Positions 46,701 through 63,127 of a stretch of 64,000 nt of DNA are shown one piece after another. Source of the stretch: Stenomitos rutilans HA7619-LM2 (GTDB lineage Bacteria; Cyanobacteriota; Cyanobacteriia; Leptolyngbyales; Leptolyngbyaceae); the NCBI GenBank assembly GCA_019358945.1, contig JAHHIE010000009.1:62001-126000 (forward strand), in the 5' to 3' direction. The notes beneath the pieces are model-generated. The model did not search any database and was not told the origin of the DNA. It was given only the letters and a program-made list of their open reading frames with translations. Position 1 is the first letter of the stretch; each line of letters begins with the position of its first letter. Both the position numbers and the translations under genes were made by a program.

Positions 46701-47669
46701 AACATTAGCGCAGTCAATTTAGCAACGGTGATGCGAGCGGCAATGGAAACGGTGCGTCTGGCGGCGGAAGCCAAAGGGATAGAAGTGAAGTGTGAGTTGA
46801 GAGGAGTGGCGAGTGAAGAACCAGACCTCCCCGCACCTCTCCCTGCTGACTTGTCAGCCTTTATGGTTTCGGGTGATGCTACTCGCTTACAACAAGTCGT
46901 GTGGAACTTGCTTTCCAATGCGGTGAAGTTTACCCCTGCTGGGGGGCATGTGGCAGTGAAACTGGCATCAGTAGACAATCAAGCTCAAATGACCATCCGT
47001 GATAATGGCAAAGGCATTGCGCCAGAGTTCTTACCGCATGTCTTTGACTATTTCCAGCAAGAAGATAGCGCCACCACGCGCAGGTTTGGTGGCTTAGGGT
47101 TAGGGTTAGCGATCGTCCGCCAGATTGTGGAACTGCACGGCGGCACCGTTTGGGCAGAGAGCCAGGGCGAAGGGTTAGGAGCCACGTTTACGGTCAGGCT
47201 ACCGTTAATAAAAAGACAGGAAGATGGGGAGACGGGGGGATGGGGAGAAAATGCTCACACCCCACACCCCACACCCCACGCCCCTCTCACTGGTTTACAC
47301 ATTCTGGTGGTGGATGATGATTCTGACTCGCGTGACTTCATTGCCTTTGTGATCGGGCAGGCGGGGGCAACCGTAAGCATCGCGGCTTCTGGGGCAGAAG
47401 CCATTGCCCTGCTGCTGCAATCCCAAGTCGATGTGCTGCTGAGTGATGTTGGGATGCCGGATATGGATGGCTATATGCTGATGCAGCAGGTGAGAGGTCT
47501 TCCACCTGAGCAAAATGGACAGGTGAAGGCGATCGCTCTCACCGCCTACGCTGGAGACTTTAACTACCAACAGGCCTTGCAAGCCGGATTTCAACAGCAT
47601 GTGAGTAAACCCATTGCACCAGAAGCGTTGGTGAAGGCGATCACCGCTCTATTGAGGGGCAACCCATGA
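43698..47669 (+). CDS. large membrane-anchored hybrid histidine kinase
   Basis: A 1323-residue kinase. N-terminus: membrane anchor of DUF4118/KdpD type with three or four segments (about 10-110). Then PAS (about 155-260), GAF (about 270-430), GAF (about 445-605), PAS (about 625-740, FRTWQDGS-type fold), GAF (about 760-925), HisKA with His941 in LSHELRSPLNP, HATPase with N-box and G-boxes (DNGKGI, GGLGLGLAI) and a C-terminal receiver with Asp1250 in LSDVGMPD. The order of domains is typical of cyanobacterial multi-sensor kinases. A G- and C-rich heptamer tract (47218-47284) is read in frame between HATPase and receiver. It is translationally coupled to the XRE regulator. Confidence 0.93.
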   Translation: MRGGRRNQSSRLLHFGIAIFSVVVALGLTKLLAPWLYPTVTPLFFVAVMVSAWVGGWEAGLLATVLSMLAIGYFWIEPRYSLQIFGIRTIVQLGLFAIAAGVISWLSRSRYRALADARAHDQTLRETMEREAAARTRGSQTEEALWQSEARFRAVAANLPQGAVFVVDRDLRYLLAEGKALEDAGMTSEDLVGKTIWEALDLDLAATYEPNYRQALKGEPFSHEHDSHDRHYISHGTPLVNDQGEIYAVLAISYDITDRKRREANLVFLAEIQNDCAHLTTADAMMQTVGAKIGSYLNLSICAFVDVDEAQDRAIVQHNWHRADAPNLMGTYRISEFVSEAFYIAVRAGEIVIVNDTNTDPRTHAENCAALNIQAFIHVPFLRDGQWKFLFNGYDSRPRQWRADEIDLFRELANQIFPRLERARAEEATAADLRDTQLLQELGARFVTEGDIQTLYQEILSAAIALTRANGGTVQMLDSATQKLLTLASQGFSRAVFEHFYRLDASSNTSCDIALRTGDRTFIDFDVPASEDPDGSRRMHLEAGYRSAQSTPLITRSGRAIGMVSTHWSDHYRPSDRELRFLDLLARQAADLIEQRQSEQALRDSEARLQLASAASCLGVWFWDLEMGCLTWSEQCKALFGLPPDTEMSYDTFLAALHPDDRDRAHAAVTHSINHHADYDIEYRTCWQDGSVHWIAAKGSCTYDLTGKPIRMTGVALDISDRKQVEYEREQLLSREQYYTTKLHELNQAAIALNATLSIEAVLNVVTAQAYRIIGTHQAVINIVFEQNWTEAITVAHLSDKYAQWRDYDAQIDGTGIYALICQISQPIRMTQAELEAHPRWRGFGAEARNHPPMRGWLAAPLVGRDGQTVGLIQLSDKYVGEFTEEDEALLVQLAQMASVAVESARSYQGEQHARKSAEAARESADRANRVKDEFLAVLSHELRSPLNPILGWSKLLRQGRLDAAKTEQALKTIERNAQLQSELIEDLLDVSRILQGKLSLNISAVNLATVMRAAMETVRLAAEAKGIEVKCELRGVASEEPDLPAPLPADLSAFMVSGDATRLQQVVWNLLSNAVKFTPAGGHVAVKLASVDNQAQMTIRDNGKGIAPEFLPHVFDYFQQEDSATTRRFGGLGLGLAIVRQIVELHGGTVWAESQGEGLGATFTVRLPLIKRQEDGETGGWGENAHTPHPTPHAPLTGLHILVVDDDSDSRDFIAFVIGQAGATVSIAASGAEAIALLLQSQVDVLLSDVGMPDMDGYMLMQQVRGLPPEQNGQVKAIALTAYAGDFNYQQALQAGFQQHVSKPIAPEALVKAITALLRGNP
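47218..47284 (+). repeat. G-rich and ACACCCC short tandem repeats inside the kinase gene
   Basis: AGGAAGATGGGGAGACGGGG followed by repeated CACACCCC units encodes a low-complexity segment (ETGGWGEN then HTPHPTPHAPL) between HATPase and receiver. The same kinds of tract occur at 51306-51421 and around 62066-62088 and 62454-62486. Confidence 0.6.
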
Positions 47670-50900: not shown

Positions 50901-51559
50901 TTGCTATTGATACCCGCTTTCTGGTTGCGGTGCTCAGTGAAGACAGCAATATCAGTGCCAACTCTGAAGATTTTCAGGGCGGCAACGTTCGCATTAATGC
51001 CTTTTCCATCTTTGGCATTCAACCCAGTCTGGTTGCCACCCCTTTCAGTGACATCACTGCCACAGGTGCAACGTCAGCGTTGAGCGGCACAATCGATGTC
51101 ATTACCGCAGGCATTGACCCGACTTCTGGTTTAGTGGCGCTACCCACTGATCTTGCAGATGCATCAGGATTAATTGCTCAAGGCTGTCCTGCCGATAATG
51201 GCAACTCGTTTGTCATCACGGGTCGCGGTGGGTTGCCGCCCACGCCGGAACAACAGCTAGACGATGATGCGGAGTGGAGCGATCAACGGAGGCTGGTCGT
51301 AGCTGGGATAGGAGGACAGGGAGACGCGGAGATGCGGAGACGCGGAGACGTTCAAAATTCAAAATTACCCTACACCCCATCCCTCATCCCCCACACCCTA
51401 CACCCTACACCCTACGCCCCAATCGTCGAAGCAACCGGAATACAAATCACTTCCAATGGAAAAATCTTTCTAGTCGCGATCGCCCCCAACCCAAGCGTAC
51501 AGAATTGGTTCAATCAGCCAGGCACTTGCAGCGGTAAGGTCGTAAACCACTTAAAGTAG
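47930..51559 (+). CDS. two-partner-secretion haemagglutinin-type exoprotein (TpsA)
   Basis: A 1209-residue secreted protein. A signal peptide (residues about 1-28, cut after PIAAQ) is followed by the TPS secretion domain (about 30-170: GGARRGGNLFHSFSQFSVP, NIFSRVTGGSVSNIDGLIRANGAANLFLLNPNGILFGPNASLNIGGSF). The rest is a beta-helix with about five 60-residue repeats of the type TINARDRVSLDSSTIFNTVEPTGIGNAG. The C-terminus after a G-rich tract has an odd low-complexity stretch and a final GxCSGKV. Family exoproteins are adhesins or biofilm matrix proteins exported by a TpsB pore; no tpsB gene lies in the window. Confidence 0.93.
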   Translation: MTEWNLRTWVLLSSVMWVFGGVQPIAAQVVPDATLPAGERSQVTGNPNVQIDGGARRGGNLFHSFSQFSVPTGGSAYFNNAADVQNIFSRVTGGSVSNIDGLIRANGAANLFLLNPNGILFGPNASLNIGGSFAATTANAIGFPNGEVFSSDATQPLPSQLLTVNPNAFFFNQLTPKPIVNQSTFNGTGLQVPVKQNLLLVGGAVQFDNGRIASPGSYVESGNVGGVGTVGLSTTSEDWQLSIPDSVVRADVSLSNDSRINVLGGEGGSIAVTARNVSLSEESRFRVGIDADLGFVGAQTGGIQIDATETVNLFNAGSIRIEVLPRGTGNVGDMTITTGSLFLTGVSRLVAATSGQGSVGSINIHARNTVSFDSNSYILNAVQNAAIGNTGGINITTGLLSLTGGTELVFSVRGQGNVGSVNIHARDTVSLDNSKVFNTVEPTGIGNAGNISITTGALAFTDDAALISRTEGQGNSGNVSINARDRISLDNSAIFNTVEPTSIGNAGDIAITTGLLTLTGGSYLLANTSGQGNAGSVTINARDRVSLDSSTIFNTVEPTGIGNAGAINITTESLSLVKGSQMIAGTSGQGNAGDVTINARDRVSVDGESLDGTIASTIFTQVNPGAFGQGGNVAIATGTLFLTNGGAINTANTGGTGDAGRVTIQARDSVQIRGTAPSYTYLRSGVFTSATPGSVGNGGDVSLATGSLSVSDQGRIITNAEGQGDAGNIQIQASGVVLFDGGDAISTFDSEAAGRGGDIEIEARSLSVLNNAQLSASTTGNGNAGNITASADTVTVNSGGQLLTTTSSNGRAGDITVKTPNLQLSGANSGLFAGTTSAGDAGNLTIQPRGNGQSVQVNLQDGAQISASTASSGRGGQLTIAAPESITLAGNGSIIAAGAGGIGAGGNLSLRTGSLNIQDQAEVTVSSSGTGTAGSLFVDANRIFLNNQGSIRADTTGGGGNINLRSPFILLRNGSNITTNATGNNVPGGNIAIDTRFLVAVLSEDSNISANSEDFQGGNVRINAFSIFGIQPSLVATPFSDITATGATSALSGTIDVITAGIDPTSGLVALPTDLADASGLIAQGCPADNGNSFVITGRGGLPPTPEQQLDDDAEWSDQRRLVVAGIGGQGDAEMRRRGDVQNSKLPYTPSLIPHTLHPTPYAPIVEATGIQITSNGKIFLVAIAPNPSVQNWFNQPGTCSGKVVNHLK
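51306..51421 (+). repeat. GGAGACGCGGA and CCCTACACC tandem repeats inside the exoprotein gene
   Basis: Direct repeats of GGAGACGCGGAGATGC-type units are followed by CTACACCC heptamers and read in frame near the C-terminus of the exoprotein. The same heptamers occur in the kinase gene and beside the four-helix-bundle gene. Confidence 0.6.
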
Positions 51560-58946: not shown

Positions 58947-59789
58947 ATGGCTGACCTTAAAGTGCTTCTAAGCAGCATTCCCATCAGCATCGCTCTGGGT
59001 TTAGAACTGGCGATCGTGCCTGGGACAGCTTCGCCAGCAATATTCCAACAAAGATTCCCCTTAGTCCCCCTTTTTAAGGGGGAAACAGAGCCACTCTTAC
59101 CCTCCCTTTTTAAGGGGGGATGGGGGGATCGAATGGAGAGACAACTTGCACAAAGCAATCCCCCGCCACCCCCGACGAATCCGGGTAGCTCCTCCGCTGG
59201 GGGACGGCGTGATCCAACCAACTGCCCTCAAGATGTGGGAGTAACAACCAGCCCCTTACTCACTGCCCTTAGCCCCATGACAAAACCAGGACTCACAGTG
59301 GCAGAGCGTCCGACCTTTCTCGTCTATGTGCCCAAAACCAGTGCAAAGAATGCAGAGTTTAGCCTTCGCAGCCGGATGGGTCAAGGGATTTATCGCACCA
59401 TGATTGCCCTGTCCGCGACTCCCAAACTCATCAGCATTACCCTGCCCGCGCAAACACCCCCGTTAGCGGTGGATCAGTCCTATACCTGGGCGTTTGCCAT
59501 CATTTGCAACCTGAACGATCGCCTGGACGATCGCTTTGTCACAGGCATGGTGCAACGCCTTGCGATTGATTCGGGTCGTCTACGTCAAATCCAGCAGGCA
59601 TCACTCAAGGAACAGCTAGTGCTCTATCAGCAAGTGAATGCCTGGTACGATGCCCTCGCCCTTCTGTTTCAGCTAAAACGTAGTCAACCGAATGACTCAA
59701 CCGCCAACACCGCTTGGCGCGAACTGCTGCAAGCAGGAGGAGTGGATCCCATGATTGATAGCAACCCAGAGACTACAAACCCACGTTGA
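58947..59789 (+). CDS. DUF928 protein with repeat-derived insertion
   Basis: A 280-residue secreted or periplasmic protein: hydrophobic start MADLKVLLSSIPISIALGLE as a possible signal peptide, then DUF928 body (YVPKTSAKNAEFSLRSRMGQ, TLPAQTPPLAVDQSYTWAFAI, QVNAWYDALALLFQLKRSQP). Between them is a 26-residue insert read from a dispersed repeat (CCCCCTTTTTAAGGGGG) that gives FKGETEPLLPSLFKGGWGD. DUF928 function is unknown; it co-occurs with CHAT and CHASE2 proteins. It starts 9 bases after the CHAT stop and overlaps the kinase start by 4 bases, so all three are one operon. Confidence 0.85.
   Translation: MADLKVLLSSIPISIALGLELAIVPGTASPAIFQQRFPLVPLFKGETEPLLPSLFKGGWGDRMERQLAQSNPPPPPTNPGSSSAGGRRDPTNCPQDVGVTTSPLLTALSPMTKPGLTVAERPTFLVYVPKTSAKNAEFSLRSRMGQGIYRTMIALSATPKLISITLPAQTPPLAVDQSYTWAFAIICNLNDRLDDRFVTGMVQRLAIDSGRLRQIQQASLKEQLVLYQQVNAWYDALALLFQLKRSQPNDSTANTAWRELLQAGGVDPMIDSNPETTNPR
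59052..59128 (+). repeat. CCCTTTTTAAGGGGG palindromic repeat inside the DUF928 gene
   Basis: Two copies of a CCCCCTTTTTAAGGGGG / CTCCCTTTTTAAGGGGGG palindrome 45 bases apart, in frame. Such blocks are dispersed repeats and look like a recent insertion into the coding sequence. Confidence 0.6.
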
Positions 59790-62065
59790 GCGATCGCATT
59801 TATTCCATGTGGACAACTTTAAAGCAGCAGCTTTGGCGATGGCGTGGCGTTTTAATTACCGTTCCGAGCATTGCCGGAGGTTTGCTGCTGCTGCGTTTTA
59901 CAGGCGCACTACAACTGATGGAGCTAGTGGCGCTGGATCAGATGTTTCGCCTTCGTCCCGTTGAAGCCGTTGATGATCGCATTGTCCTCATCACGATCGA
60001 TGAGTCAGATATCAAACAGCTTGGGCAATGGCCCATGTCTGATGCAGCGCTAGCTCGCGTCATCACTACGCTCAAACAACAGCAGCCCAGAGTCATTGGT
60101 CTGGATATTTTTCGCGATCTACCCGTTGAACCGGGACATCAGGCATTGGTCAACGTTTTCACGACCACACCAAACTTAATTGGCATTGAGAATGTGATTA
60201 AAGCAGCGAACGGTGAAGTCGTTCAAGCCCCACCGCTCTTGAAGCAGCGTGATCAAGTCAGTGCCAGCGATCTGCTACTAGACAGGGATGGTCGGGTGCG
60301 TCGCAGCTTGTTGTATTTGAGGACTCAGGACAATCGCTCAATCTTCGCGCTGGGAGCACGCCTAGCGTTTTTGTACCTTGATCGACAAGGCATTCGCCGC
60401 CAACCCCTTAATGCTGATCAGACAAAATTTCGATTGGGTCGAGCCGTCTTTAAGCCATTGCAAACCAATACTGGTGGGTATGTGGGTCTTGATGCGGGTG
60501 GCTATCAAATTCTGTCTAACTTTCCCAGATTCCAGCAAGGGTTTCGCACGATCTCGCTGACGAATGTTTTGCAGGGTCAGTTGCCACGCGATCTGGTGCG
60601 CGATCGCATCGTCCTGATTGGGTTAACCGCAGAAAGTCTCAAAGACAAATTTTTTACTTCCTACACCACTGACTCTACTGCCGTACCTGCTGGTGTTGAA
60701 GTCCACGCGCTATTAACCAGTCAATTGTTGAGCGCTGCTTTAGATGGGCGACCACTACTGAACGTTTACCCGGAACCAATGGAATGGGTATGGCTGGTAC
60801 TTTGGTCTGCGATCGGAGCCGTCATTGGTTGGACAGCCTCATCACCACGAAAAGCCTTAGTGAGAGTGATTCTCTTAGGCATCGCTCTTTGTGGCGGTGC
60901 CTATGGCTTCTTTCTGCTGGGCTGGTGGATCATGCTCATCCCACCGTTGCTGGCGCTACTGGGATCTGCCATCACCAGCCATGGCTATTTATTGTGGGAA
61001 AATCTGAAGGAGTATGCCCACACACTTGAACAAAAGGTCGAAGAGCGCACCCTGAACCTGGAACAGGAAATTGTTGAACGAAAACAGGCAGAAGAGACCT
61101 TAAGCCAGCAGAAACAGCTTCTCCAAACGATCGTGGATCACATTCCGGTAATGATTACGCTTTACGACGCCACGGGGCGCATTGAGTTTGTCAATCATCA
61201 GTTTGAGCAAATTTTGGGCTGGTCATCTGCCGATTTGCAGAATATTGACCTGGTCGCTGAATGTAGTTCCGATTCAGAACATCGGGAGCAGATTTTAGAC
61301 CATATGTTAGCCGCCACTGGCACCTGGCTCGATCTAAAAATTAGAACCAAAGACGATCGCTTAGTAAACACCGCCTGGGCAAATGTTCAGCTTGATCATC
61401 GTCTATCTGTTGGAATCGGGCAGGACATTAGCGATCGCAAGCGGGCTGAAGAAGCCTCCCTGCTGGATGAACGCAACCGCATGGCACGCGAAATTCACGA
61501 CATTCTCGCCCAGGCGTTTACGGGCATCTTGCTGCATGTGGGAGCCGCGATGGAAATTATGGTTAAAAAACCAGCCAAGGCAGAAACACACCTGGAAACC
61601 GTGGATGAGTTAGCGCGTTCTGGACTGGCAGAAGCGCGGCGATCGGTCGTTGCCTTGCGTCCCAAACTCCTGGAAGAAGGCGATTTGCCAAGTGCCCTCA
61701 AACGCCTGACCGCTCAAATGCAGGTGTCCAGCCAGACTCAGCTCACCTGTGAAATCGTTGGAGTCACCTACGCTTTATCACCCCACGTTGAGAACCATCT
61801 TTTGCGAATTGGGCAAGAAGCCCTCACTAACGCCATTAAGTACGCTCATGCTACAACCATTGACATCGAGTTAGTGTATGAGGAAACGCAGTGCCTTCTG
61901 CGAGTTAAAGATAATGGGCAAGGCTTTGATGTAACTCAGGTCTCTCTAGAGCGGGGCTTTGGTCTAATTGGCATGAGTGAACGGGCTGAGCGGATGCATG
62001 GTGAATTAATGATCCAAAGTCAGCCAGGCCAAGGTACAGAAATCATTGTGATAGTTGGGGCGTAG
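59786..62065 (+). CDS. CHASE2-domain sensor histidine kinase (LuxR-type partner)
   Basis: A 759-residue kinase (752 from ATG 59807). It has an N-terminal membrane segment, an extracellular CHASE2 domain (about 45-300: DDRIVLITIDESDIKQLGQWP, VIGLDIFRDLPV), three membrane segments (about 330-400), a coiled coil, a PAS domain (about 440-550), then a HisKA_3 dimerisation and phosphoacceptor domain with His571 in AREIHDILAQAFTGILLHVG and a HATPase (DNGQGFD, GFGLIGMSERAERM). The HisKA_3 type pairs with LuxR/NarL response regulators, one of which lies at 62495-63127. The TTG at 59786 overlaps the DUF928 stop. Confidence 0.93.
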   Translation: MSDRIYSMWTTLKQQLWRWRGVLITVPSIAGGLLLLRFTGALQLMELVALDQMFRLRPVEAVDDRIVLITIDESDIKQLGQWPMSDAALARVITTLKQQQPRVIGLDIFRDLPVEPGHQALVNVFTTTPNLIGIENVIKAANGEVVQAPPLLKQRDQVSASDLLLDRDGRVRRSLLYLRTQDNRSIFALGARLAFLYLDRQGIRRQPLNADQTKFRLGRAVFKPLQTNTGGYVGLDAGGYQILSNFPRFQQGFRTISLTNVLQGQLPRDLVRDRIVLIGLTAESLKDKFFTSYTTDSTAVPAGVEVHALLTSQLLSAALDGRPLLNVYPEPMEWVWLVLWSAIGAVIGWTASSPRKALVRVILLGIALCGGAYGFFLLGWWIMLIPPLLALLGSAITSHGYLLWENLKEYAHTLEQKVEERTLNLEQEIVERKQAEETLSQQKQLLQTIVDHIPVMITLYDATGRIEFVNHQFEQILGWSSADLQNIDLVAECSSDSEHREQILDHMLAATGTWLDLKIRTKDDRLVNTAWANVQLDHRLSVGIGQDISDRKRAEEASLLDERNRMAREIHDILAQAFTGILLHVGAAMEIMVKKPAKAETHLETVDELARSGLAEARRSVVALRPKLLEEGDLPSALKRLTAQMQVSSQTQLTCEIVGVTYALSPHVENHLLRIGQEALTNAIKYAHATTIDIELVYEETQCLLRVKDNGQGFDVTQVSLERGFGLIGMSERAERMHGELMIQSQPGQGTEIIVIVGA

Positions 62066-62088
62066 GGGTGTAGGGTGTGGGGTATGGG
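62066..62088 (+). repeat. GTGTAGGG heptamer tract, left flank of the four-helix-bundle gene
   Basis: GGGGTGTAGGGTGTGGGGTATGG just before the small gene, G-rich version of the heptamer tract. Its reverse complement type (CTACACCC) occurs at 62454-62486 on the other side, so the small gene is bracketed by inverted heptamer tracts. Confidence 0.6.
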
Positions 62089-62437
62089 TAAATTGGAAAG
62101 CTATCGTGACTTAGAGGTTTGGAAAGTCTCAATGCAATTAGCACGAGCCGTATACCAAGCGACAGAAGCTATGCCGAAGCATGAGATCTATGGCTTAACG
62201 TCTCAGATTCGCAAAGCTAGTGTATCTGCAAATATTGCTGAAGGCTATGGGCGGCATCATCGTAAGGAATACCTCCAGTTCCTCGGCATTGCTAATGGTA
62301 GCTTTAAAGAACTGGAGACGCTGCTTCTCCTCGCTAATGGTTTGACTTACATTGGTAACATTACCGAACTGATGCGTTTGTGTGAAAGTGCAGGACGCTT
62401 ACTCAATCGCCTTCGTCAAAATCTTCAAGGGTTGTAG
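62084..62437 (+). CDS. four-helix-bundle (S23/IVP-type) protein
   Basis: A 117-residue protein of the four-helix-bundle family related to 23S rRNA intervening-sequence proteins and diversity-generating-retroelement accessory proteins: YRDLEVWKVSMQLARAVYQAT (about 6-26), YGLTSQIRKASVSANIAEGY (about 36-55), YLQFLGIANGSFKELETLLLLAN (about 63-85). ATG 62084 is used; it lies inside the G-rich tract. It separates a histidine kinase from its probable response regulator and is flanked by inverted heptamer tracts, so it looks like an inserted cassette. Confidence 0.9.
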   Translation: MGKLESYRDLEVWKVSMQLARAVYQATEAMPKHEIYGLTSQIRKASVSANIAEGYGRHHRKEYLQFLGIANGSFKELETLLLLANGLTYIGNITELMRLCESAGRLLNRLRQNLQGL

Positions 62438-62453
62438 ATCGCAATAAGATTTG

Positions 62454-62486
62454 CTACACCCTACACCTTACACCCCACACTCTACC
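62454..62486 (+). repeat. CTACACC heptamer tract, right flank of the four-helix-bundle gene
   Basis: CTACACCCTACACCTTACAC and the following CCCACACTCTACC, heptamers complementary to those at 62066-62088. Confidence 0.6.
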
Positions 62487-62494
62487 TAACCCCA

Positions 62495-63127
62495 ATGTCT
62501 ACATCCCATACTCAGATTCGAGTGCTCATTGTGGATGATCATCTGATCGTTCAGGAAGGGATCGCTGCCATCATCAATGAAGAAGAGGATATGACGGTGA
62601 TTGGTCGCGCAAAGAATGGGATCGAGGCGATCGAGTTGTTTCGTCAGCTACAGCCTGATGTAACTTTGATGGATTTGCGGATGCCCGAAATGGGAGGAGT
62701 GGAAGCCATCACGGCGCTTTGTGCTGAATTTAACACGGCTCGCACGATTGTCTTAACCACTTATGACGGCGATGAGGACATCTATCGAGGGTTACGAGCA
62801 GGTGCAAAAGGCTATTTACTCAAAGACTCTAAACCCAGTGAACTGCGCACAGCCATTCGTACCGTTTATAGCGGTCAGCAGTACATTCCATCACACGTTG
62901 GCGCTAAGTTAGTCGAGCGGATGAACAATCCCGAATTAACCGATCGCGAATTAGAAGTCTTGCAATTAGTCGCTCAGGGCATGAGTAATTTAGAAATTGG
63001 TGTTGCCTTAACAATTACTGAAAGCACCGTTAAGTCGAATATCAACCGCATTTTAAGCAAGCTGGGAGCGAAAGACCGCACCCAAGCAACCATTATTGCA
63101 ATGAAACGGGGGCTTACCAGCTCTTAA
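62495..63127 (+). CDS. LuxR/NarL-type response regulator
   Basis: A 210-residue response regulator: receiver domain (about 8-125) with acidic pair in VDDH, phosphoacceptor Asp60 in VTLMDLRMPE, Thr in VLTTYDGDED and Lys in YLLKDSKP, then a LuxR-type HTH (about 145-205, LTDRELEVLQLVAQGMSNLEIGVALTITESTVKSNINRILSKLGAKDRTQ). It is the natural partner of the HisKA_3 kinase at 59786-62065, separated from it by the four-helix-bundle gene. Confidence 0.94.
   Translation: MSTSHTQIRVLIVDDHLIVQEGIAAIINEEEDMTVIGRAKNGIEAIELFRQLQPDVTLMDLRMPEMGGVEAITALCAEFNTARTIVLTTYDGDEDIYRGLRAGAKGYLLKDSKPSELRTAIRTVYSGQQYIPSHVGAKLVERMNNPELTDRELEVLQLVAQGMSNLEIGVALTITESTVKSNINRILSKLGAKDRTQATIIAMKRGLTSS

Follow-up and report, generated by a model that had tools for sequence, protein, structure and literature searches.

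The intervening sequence (IVS) in the 23S rRNA of Coxiella burnetii contains an S23p gene and a 28-bp terminal stem within which RNase III cleaves; RNase III excision has been seen in vitro, and the S23p protein is thought not to be made (PMC4990558, in its available part). The same part of that article describes heptameric repeats before the S23p start, in a number that differs between strains, and cites a homopentamer for the Xanthomonas homologue of the S23 protein. G-rich heptamers of Xanthomonas and Nostoc, found as convergent inverted pairs (70 in Xcc, 75 in Xac), are treated in PMC4692102, from which the terms "IVP", "four helix" and "S23" are absent. PMC2670836 describes STRR hairpins of filamentous cyanobacteria, for example between hupS and hupL, and has neither "S23" nor "heptamer" among its terms. 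Two partially available sources place IVP genes in cas loci: PMC3936711 counts 18 of them, and PMC10910872 has IVP among the proteins named in a figure of cas loci. Structural homology between PF05635 and Avd, a protein of diversity-generating retroelements, is suggested in the available part of PMC10053308. The protein family, the rRNA IVS, the intergenic heptamers and the hairpin-forming STRR are each already known. A search of titles and abstract openings in the open-access literature found no report that connects heptamer arrays with IVP genes lying outside rRNA. Earlier work reportedly deals with small dispersed repeats in Nostoc.

The window analyzed here is a stretch of 64,000 nucleotides from the 7.28 Mb genome (G000) of Stenomitos rutilans HA7619-LM2. 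It contains an IVP gene that lies between a kinase gene and a regulator gene rather than in 23S rRNA, with all features of the locus on the forward strand. The sensor kinase, with CHASE2, PAS, HisKA_3, and HATPase_c domains by Pfam, occupies 59813..62065 (its ORF is listed from a TTG at 59786). An imperfect heptamer array of the GTGTAGG/GTGTGGG type, the left arm, covers 62056..62083, and the kinase stop codon at 62063-62065 falls inside it. The IVP/S23 four-helix-bundle gene, encoding 117 amino acids, follows at 62084..62437, with a GTG at 62075 as an alternative start. A C-rich heptamer array, the right arm, extends over 62454..62494, and the NarL/LuxR-type response regulator (ORF, with Response_reg and GerE by Pfam) runs from 62495 to 63127. 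A preliminary description, made from the letters alone, had placed an IVP-type gene between a HisKA_3 kinase and its LuxR-type regulator, and the ORFs and the Pfam and TIGR profiles agree with it: the product matches PF05635 at E 1.7e-30 and 105.8 bits (curated cut-off 33.8) and TIGR02436 at 101.4 bits (cut-off 24). Its structure model, with a pLDDT of 93.9, is a helical bundle that aligns to 2GSC with TM 0.90 and rmsd 1.0. XCC0516 (2GSC) and BT_0352 (2RLD), of the S23 family, have the same fold, with profile E-values of 6e-36 and 1.7e-34; these are protein structures only, and no link to repeat arms was found in what was consulted. The window IVP is without two residues (VP) of a conserved motif that its nearest relatives, at loci L015 and L016, both retain in the alignment.

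The same preliminary description claimed inverted heptamer tracts around the gene, and these are found by TRF with period 7 on both sides: TGGGGTG at 62056-62088 (score 36), overlapping the IVP ATG, and CTACACC at 62454-62485 (score 43). The right arm is the reverse complement of the left arm type and reaches the start codon of the regulator, and the G-rich strand of the left arm points into the cassette, a term that we use for the IVP gene plus both arms. The arms are paired in the RNA fold of 62041-62505 (-154.3 kcal/mol, z -4.7, with 0 of 100 shuffles as good). As far as the available parts of the sources go, the locus is thus like the Coxiella IVS in having an IVP-family gene in the loop, complementary ends that give a stem, and heptamers directly before the gene, but differs from it in occupying a protein-operon junction with an open reading frame (PMC4990558). 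It shares with the repeats of PMC4692102 the 7-bp unit, the intergenic position and the convergent inverted pair, and with the STRR of PMC2670836 the location at a gene junction and the short tandem repeats with hairpin-forming potential. No transposase was found in the insert, whose only ORF of at least 60 amino acids is the IVP gene, nor was a reverse transcriptase with template/variable repeats, as in a diversity-generating retroelement; unlike Avd systems, an insert of about 430 bp has no room for them. Of 443 PDB matches to the window model, 50 were listed, and the Avd entry 4DWL is not one of these 50. The arms are short and imperfect, with about 4.6 copies each. Neither was scored in a stricter array scan, the 6-mer match of this copy ranks 8th among 32 right flanks, and its arm-match score is 14.0 against a control-window maximum of 13. 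Alone, these arms are modest evidence; the weight lies with the class as a whole.

Matches to PF05635 occur in six of the seven genomes of the genus (20 copies), in 25 of 42 genomes of the order, and in 76 of 146 genomes sampled across the phylum, other classes included, 69 of them over the curated cut-off. The best named IVP matches of the profile from genus and order are in Nostoc and Phormidium. For a second set, seven IVPs (A2) served as queries on GTDB contigs, and the best 80 of 582 confirmed matches were kept. These best 80 come from Acidobacteria, Rhizobiales, Planctomycetes, Chloroflexi, Gemmatimonadetes, Bacteroidota, Fibrobacteres, Nitrospirae, and others, and include one Methanophagales MAG, possibly mis-binned. 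The two sets hold 139 copies, 133 with 200 usable bp on each side. For these, an arm-match score compares the left flank with the reverse-complemented right flank, with a threshold of 12, which marks the 99th percentile among 259 control windows shifted along the same contigs. The search for the same gene with heptamer flanks at other loci, proposed in the preliminary description, found 119 of the 133 copies above this threshold and 14 at or below it, where the 133 are partly non-independent (orthologous loci), are best-scoring loci, and are biased to A2 relatives. The median score is 20 for a copy's own flanks, against 8 for cross-paired flanks (n = 399), 8.5 in direct orientation, and 8 for shifted windows (n = 259, maximum 13). 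Autocorrelation at lag 7 is 15.0 in left flanks and 15.4 in right flanks, against 5.1 in control stretches, with lags 4-6 and 8-12 at 3.7-6.0. Median RNA duplex energies are -64.6 for own arms, -43.3 for cross-paired arms, and -49.9 for controls; the separation between own and other arms is only moderate, and the energies were dropped as main evidence.

None of the 139 loci has two or more of six 23S rRNA motifs, 20 of the loci gave no Rfam match over threshold, and the window IVP protein has no match in phages at 1e-5. In the Lysobacteraceae, the family of genome G188, the gene occurs in 29 of 60 genomes; of 30 loci, 28 are long enough to score and 26 exceed 12. The sharing of units among these loci also lifts 26 of 112 cross-paired flanks above 12. 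Several of the IVP genes sit inside arrays with GGGATTC/GGGAATC units, the type described from Xanthomonas (PMC4692102, available part).

The units themselves vary. Both arms could be scored in 82 copies; in these, the unit of the left arm is 0.86 identical to the reverse complement of the right-arm unit, against 0.55 when cross-paired, and the two agree at 6 of 7 positions or better in 68 of 82 copies, against 5.7% of 406 cross-paired comparisons. The inward-running strand has more G than C in 73 of the 82, less in seven, and equal amounts in two. What varies is the sequence of the unit, with period, inversion, and polarity almost constant; the 82 cassettes carry 61 different units, a variety that rules out a fixed sequence as the signature of the element. 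A stop codon occurs in the left unit of 41 of the 82, a suggestive count, as shuffling the units gives 32.8 +/- 3.7 and the opposite strand 20. Unit identity is 0.770 for those 36 pairs, from 95 cassettes, that occupy different sites and whose IVPs are at least 70% identical, "different sites" meaning no flank homology by blastn, so that distant orthologous sites could count as different. Permuted units give 0.549 +/- 0.028, and 0 of 2000 permutations reach the observed value. Agreement between the arms of one cassette is 0.874 over the 95; for cassettes in the 36 pairs, own arms agree at 0.866, and the arms of the relative at 0.770 and 0.758. The unit follows the IVP gene between sites, and the arms thus travel with the gene and then change together. 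Very long arms, one of the two having at least a dozen units, are seen at L172, L393, and L396 and suggest continued array expansion.

Relatives of the window's genome show kinase-regulator pairs without the gene, as the preliminary description had proposed to look for. Of the two outcomes that it named as refuting its reading, a gene present at every orthologous locus and a lack of heptamer flanks at other loci, neither was observed. Four of the seven genomes of the genus, besides the window's, hold a full-length kinase ortholog, 69-87% identical. Three of these four congeners are empty (G001, G004, and G006, with kinase identities of 69-77%): kinase and regulator adjoin with no insert and no left array, and in G001 and G006 the kinase stop and regulator start overlap as ATGA. 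The fourth and nearest, G005, has a C-rich array of about four units, one G-rich unit, and no IVP, and an array there may be older than the gene. Two other kinase-regulator pairs (regulators read from the flanks) hold IVPs with arms of the same unit type; identity to the window IVP is 85% for L015 in G002 and 83% for L016 in G005, and recombination between paralogous kinase genes may have transferred these.

A larger sample of filled and empty sites is provided by the junction of nuoC and nuoD. For the order of a Rhizobium tropici genome, a search of 81 genomes gave 30 loci for inspection, and the 28 resolved junctions comprise, by hand count, five cassettes (L214, L215, L217, L219, and, by eye, L223), four other inserts, and 19 empty junctions. 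The genus of G258, which is Mesorhizobium-like (97-98% match to a Mesorhizobium locus), was covered by 81 genomes, 78 with the gene, and 70 junctions fetched and resolved. Here 21 junctions hold an IVP cassette, 44 are empty, and five hold other genes. The empty junctions measure 32-42 nt from the nuoC stop to the nuoD core and are therefore too short for arrays, whereas all 21 filled ones have matched arms, with scores of 13.0-32.0 and units of the types GTAGTGA (11), GTGAATG (8), and GCGAATA (2). On a tree of the flanks, the states IVP, empty, and other need 23 changes; with 31 of 67 inner branches open and recombination likely, this number shows lability and is not a count of jumps. Filled junctions were compared with their closest empty counterparts by ungapped identity, a measure blind to differing lengths of the nuoC end, and the pairs used are L280/L278 and L253/L251. 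The filled L280 and the empty L278 are 94.8% identical over 785 flanking nt; what sets them apart is an insert that lies within the stop codon (CAGT / insert / AGGGCGACC) and shows no target duplication; precise loss would give the same picture.

At nuoC/nuoD, near-identical hosts carry divergent IVP genes. The pairs L180/L215 and L153/L219 each share 97% identity in NuoC and 98-99% in NuoD but only 58% and 55%, respectively, in the IVP (comparisons of up to 150 residues), and their units differ. Different cassettes therefore reached the same junction. Together with the insertion polymorphism, 21 of 70, these pairs support the earlier suggestion of a mobile cassette with tandem-repeat ends. 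In individual cases the movement may have been with surrounding DNA, by homologous recombination or on plasmids. Repeated copies were sampled in five genomes (20 loci) without any sign of a bare cassette having jumped recently; the copies are divergent, apart from two loci of G086 that are alike over the whole 3.3 kb. By type, the Rhizobiales cassettes have IVP dN/dS values of about 0.12, 0.12, and 0.09, against 0.05, 0.05, and 0.04 for the nuoC tail, calculated over 20 of the 21 cassettes (L266 not being extracted) with L260, which belongs to type B, counted in type A. These values indicate purifying selection on the gene within types. The frame looks shifted in L254 and L260.

Heptamer arrays also occur without the gene, and this bears on a different reading, which we judge unlikely, that convergent heptamer arrays are separate and older intergenic landing pads where IVP genes merely insert. 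In 464 kb of this genome, 37 of 44 arrays have period 7, and heptamer arrays amount to 8.0 per 100 kb. In three congeners with 0, 3, and 6 IVP genes, the array density per 100 kb is 3.0, 8.0, and 20.5, respectively. Array density as a product of IVP number, the trend of these three, was not borne out in 20 further cyanobacterial genomes, where array number and IVP count correlate with rho 0.39 (p 0.09), where the means are 3.7 arrays per 60 kb in genomes with no IVP against 3.8, and where one genome with no IVP has 16 in 60 kb. Being frequent without IVP, and not explained by IVP count, the arrays are not simply IVP products. Neighbouring array pairs in the three congeners run G-to-C in 24 cases (two of them IVP loci), C-to-G in three, and in the same direction in 15, and a hand sum over the 20 further genomes gives 11 G-to-C against three C-to-G pairs; convergent pairs without IVP keep the same polarity, which is therefore not a consequence of the gene. 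These frequent and mostly convergent arrays without IVP, with the convergent GGGAATC pairs published for Xanthomonas (PMC4692102, available part) and the array without gene in G005 at the window's own site, speak for landing pads. Against them, the 44 empty nuoC/nuoD junctions are too short for arrays while the 21 filled ones have them, matching units are found in 5 of 22 convergent IVP-less pairs (hand count) against the 68 of 82 with IVP, and the unit follows the gene from site to site. Array-less empty junctions next to filled, array-bearing ones were compared at two sites, the kinase-regulator and nuoC/nuoD junctions.

Genome G150 speaks for a non-autonomous passenger of a conventional transposon, MITE-like and moved in trans by a transposase, a reading that we consider quite improbable. 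At 12 loci (L067 and L095-L105) it has an IVP element, the IVP often cut short, that ends in TAACTGACGTTACGCA in 12 of 12 and also has TGCGTAACATCAGTTA in 6 of 12, a count that refers to the stretch examined; the first 360 bp or so are mostly 95-99% identical. This recent burst has terminal inverted repeats of another kind than the heptamer arms, and here an IVP cassette was apparently captured by a transposon-like element. By eye, no such outer ends are present at the window's locus or at the Rhizobiales junctions, and the clean L280/L278 pair, without target duplication, also speaks against a transposon. Least probable of all, and largely refuted, is ordinary vertical inheritance with occasional loss, in which the gene belongs to the kinase-regulator operon and helps to regulate there. 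It would account for the similar IVPs and units of L015 and L016 in other kinase-regulator pairs, and for purifying selection in the Rhizobiales copies. It fits poorly with a family that is also found at nuoC/nuoD, at cas10/cmr2-cmr3, and (by flank reading) at carA/carB, with the empty orthologs of the window's kinase, and with unrelated cassettes in near-identical hosts.

We consider it likely that the locus holds a transferable element, made up of an IVP gene with heptamer-array ends, that corresponds, in a protein operon, to the intervening sequence of 23S rRNA. Because the Coxiella IVS shows the same anatomy, we read the window element as an IVS of an operon junction, transcribed, folding, and probably cut at its arms. 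On this reading, the inserted element would be the 430 bp or so from the last codons of the kinase to the start of the regulator, and would live in the transcript of the host operon. Its arms would form a long stem, as the fold predicts, that RNase III can cut, and cutting would release the IVP message and limit harm to neighbouring cistrons. The left array would supply both the stop codon of the upstream gene and a purine-rich sequence before the IVP start, and the IVP protein would act on the RNA or DNA of its own element. In the arms, the G-rich strand runs inward on both sides, and we conjecture that a target was broken and its 3' ends extended by a 7-nt repeat. A bolder extension, which we hold only tentatively and regard as doubtful, is that IVP cassettes are one family-wide mobile class in bacteria, and perhaps archaea, whose ends are period-7 arrays renewed together. 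Aided by an RNA intermediate or a host polymerase, the single protein would copy or extend the arrays on the 3' ends of the broken target, the G-rich strand pointing inward as it does in telomeres, and many intergenic heptamers, as well as the rRNA IVS, would be traces of the process.

The transferable-element reading links the IVP/S23 family, intergenic heptamer repeats, and rRNA intervening sequences, which we have so far found treated apart. It would give a simple account of IVP genes in unrelated operons, CRISPR loci included, and it cautions against inferring the function of an IVP from its gene neighbourhood. A gene within mirrored repeats in many bacteria would represent a widespread, little-noticed kind of mobile DNA, and raises the question of how an element with no transposase keeps ends that change freely and yet hold to a 7-bp period and a mirror match.

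The window itself has two array pairs without IVP. At 47214-47284, a G-rich and then a C-rich heptamer array, with non-matching units, lie between ATPase-like and receiver-like coding sequence; by reading, the frame is open through the pair, and the arrays would encode a linker. At 51320-51421, a G-rich (GGAGACGC) array is followed by a C-rich (CCCTACA) one, again with convergent polarity. The GCGATCGC octamers typical of cyanobacteria are also present in the window.

Neighbours could be scored for 97 of the 119 arm-bearing cassettes. They are co-oriented in 87 cases, convergent in seven, and divergent in three, and the IVP is on the same strand as both neighbours in 73, as neither in 14, and as one in 10. 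Adjacent long ORFs are co-oriented in 176 of 255 cases in this genome and in 433 of 668 in 20 cyanobacterial genomes; cassettes are thus over-represented between co-oriented genes, by a background that is cyanobacterial, for cassettes from many phyla, and serves as a guide only. One cassette lies between carA and carB, by our own reading of the translated flanks. Another, on a Picosynechococcus plasmid, lies at the junction of cas10/cmr2 and cmr3 and has inverted heptamer-like arms with a flank score of 14.5. Like the 23S_rRNA_IVP genes of cas loci in the available parts of PMC3936711 and PMC10910872, it is a member of the same protein family between cas genes, and its arms suggest operon invasion rather than function. 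At L022 and L049, in different genomes, the start of the same ABC-ATPase gene is, by reading, closely preceded by different IVPs, another junction hit twice, with AGTTGTT-like units in one and GGTGAGG-like units in the other. Two plasmids of Calothrix brevissima NIES-22 (L412 and L413) share about 3.5 kb of near-identical sequence that includes a gene for a phage-type integrase as well as an IVP cassette; the arms of this cassette are of the GTGTAGG type, as in the window, and the integrase segment is a possible vehicle for the cassette.
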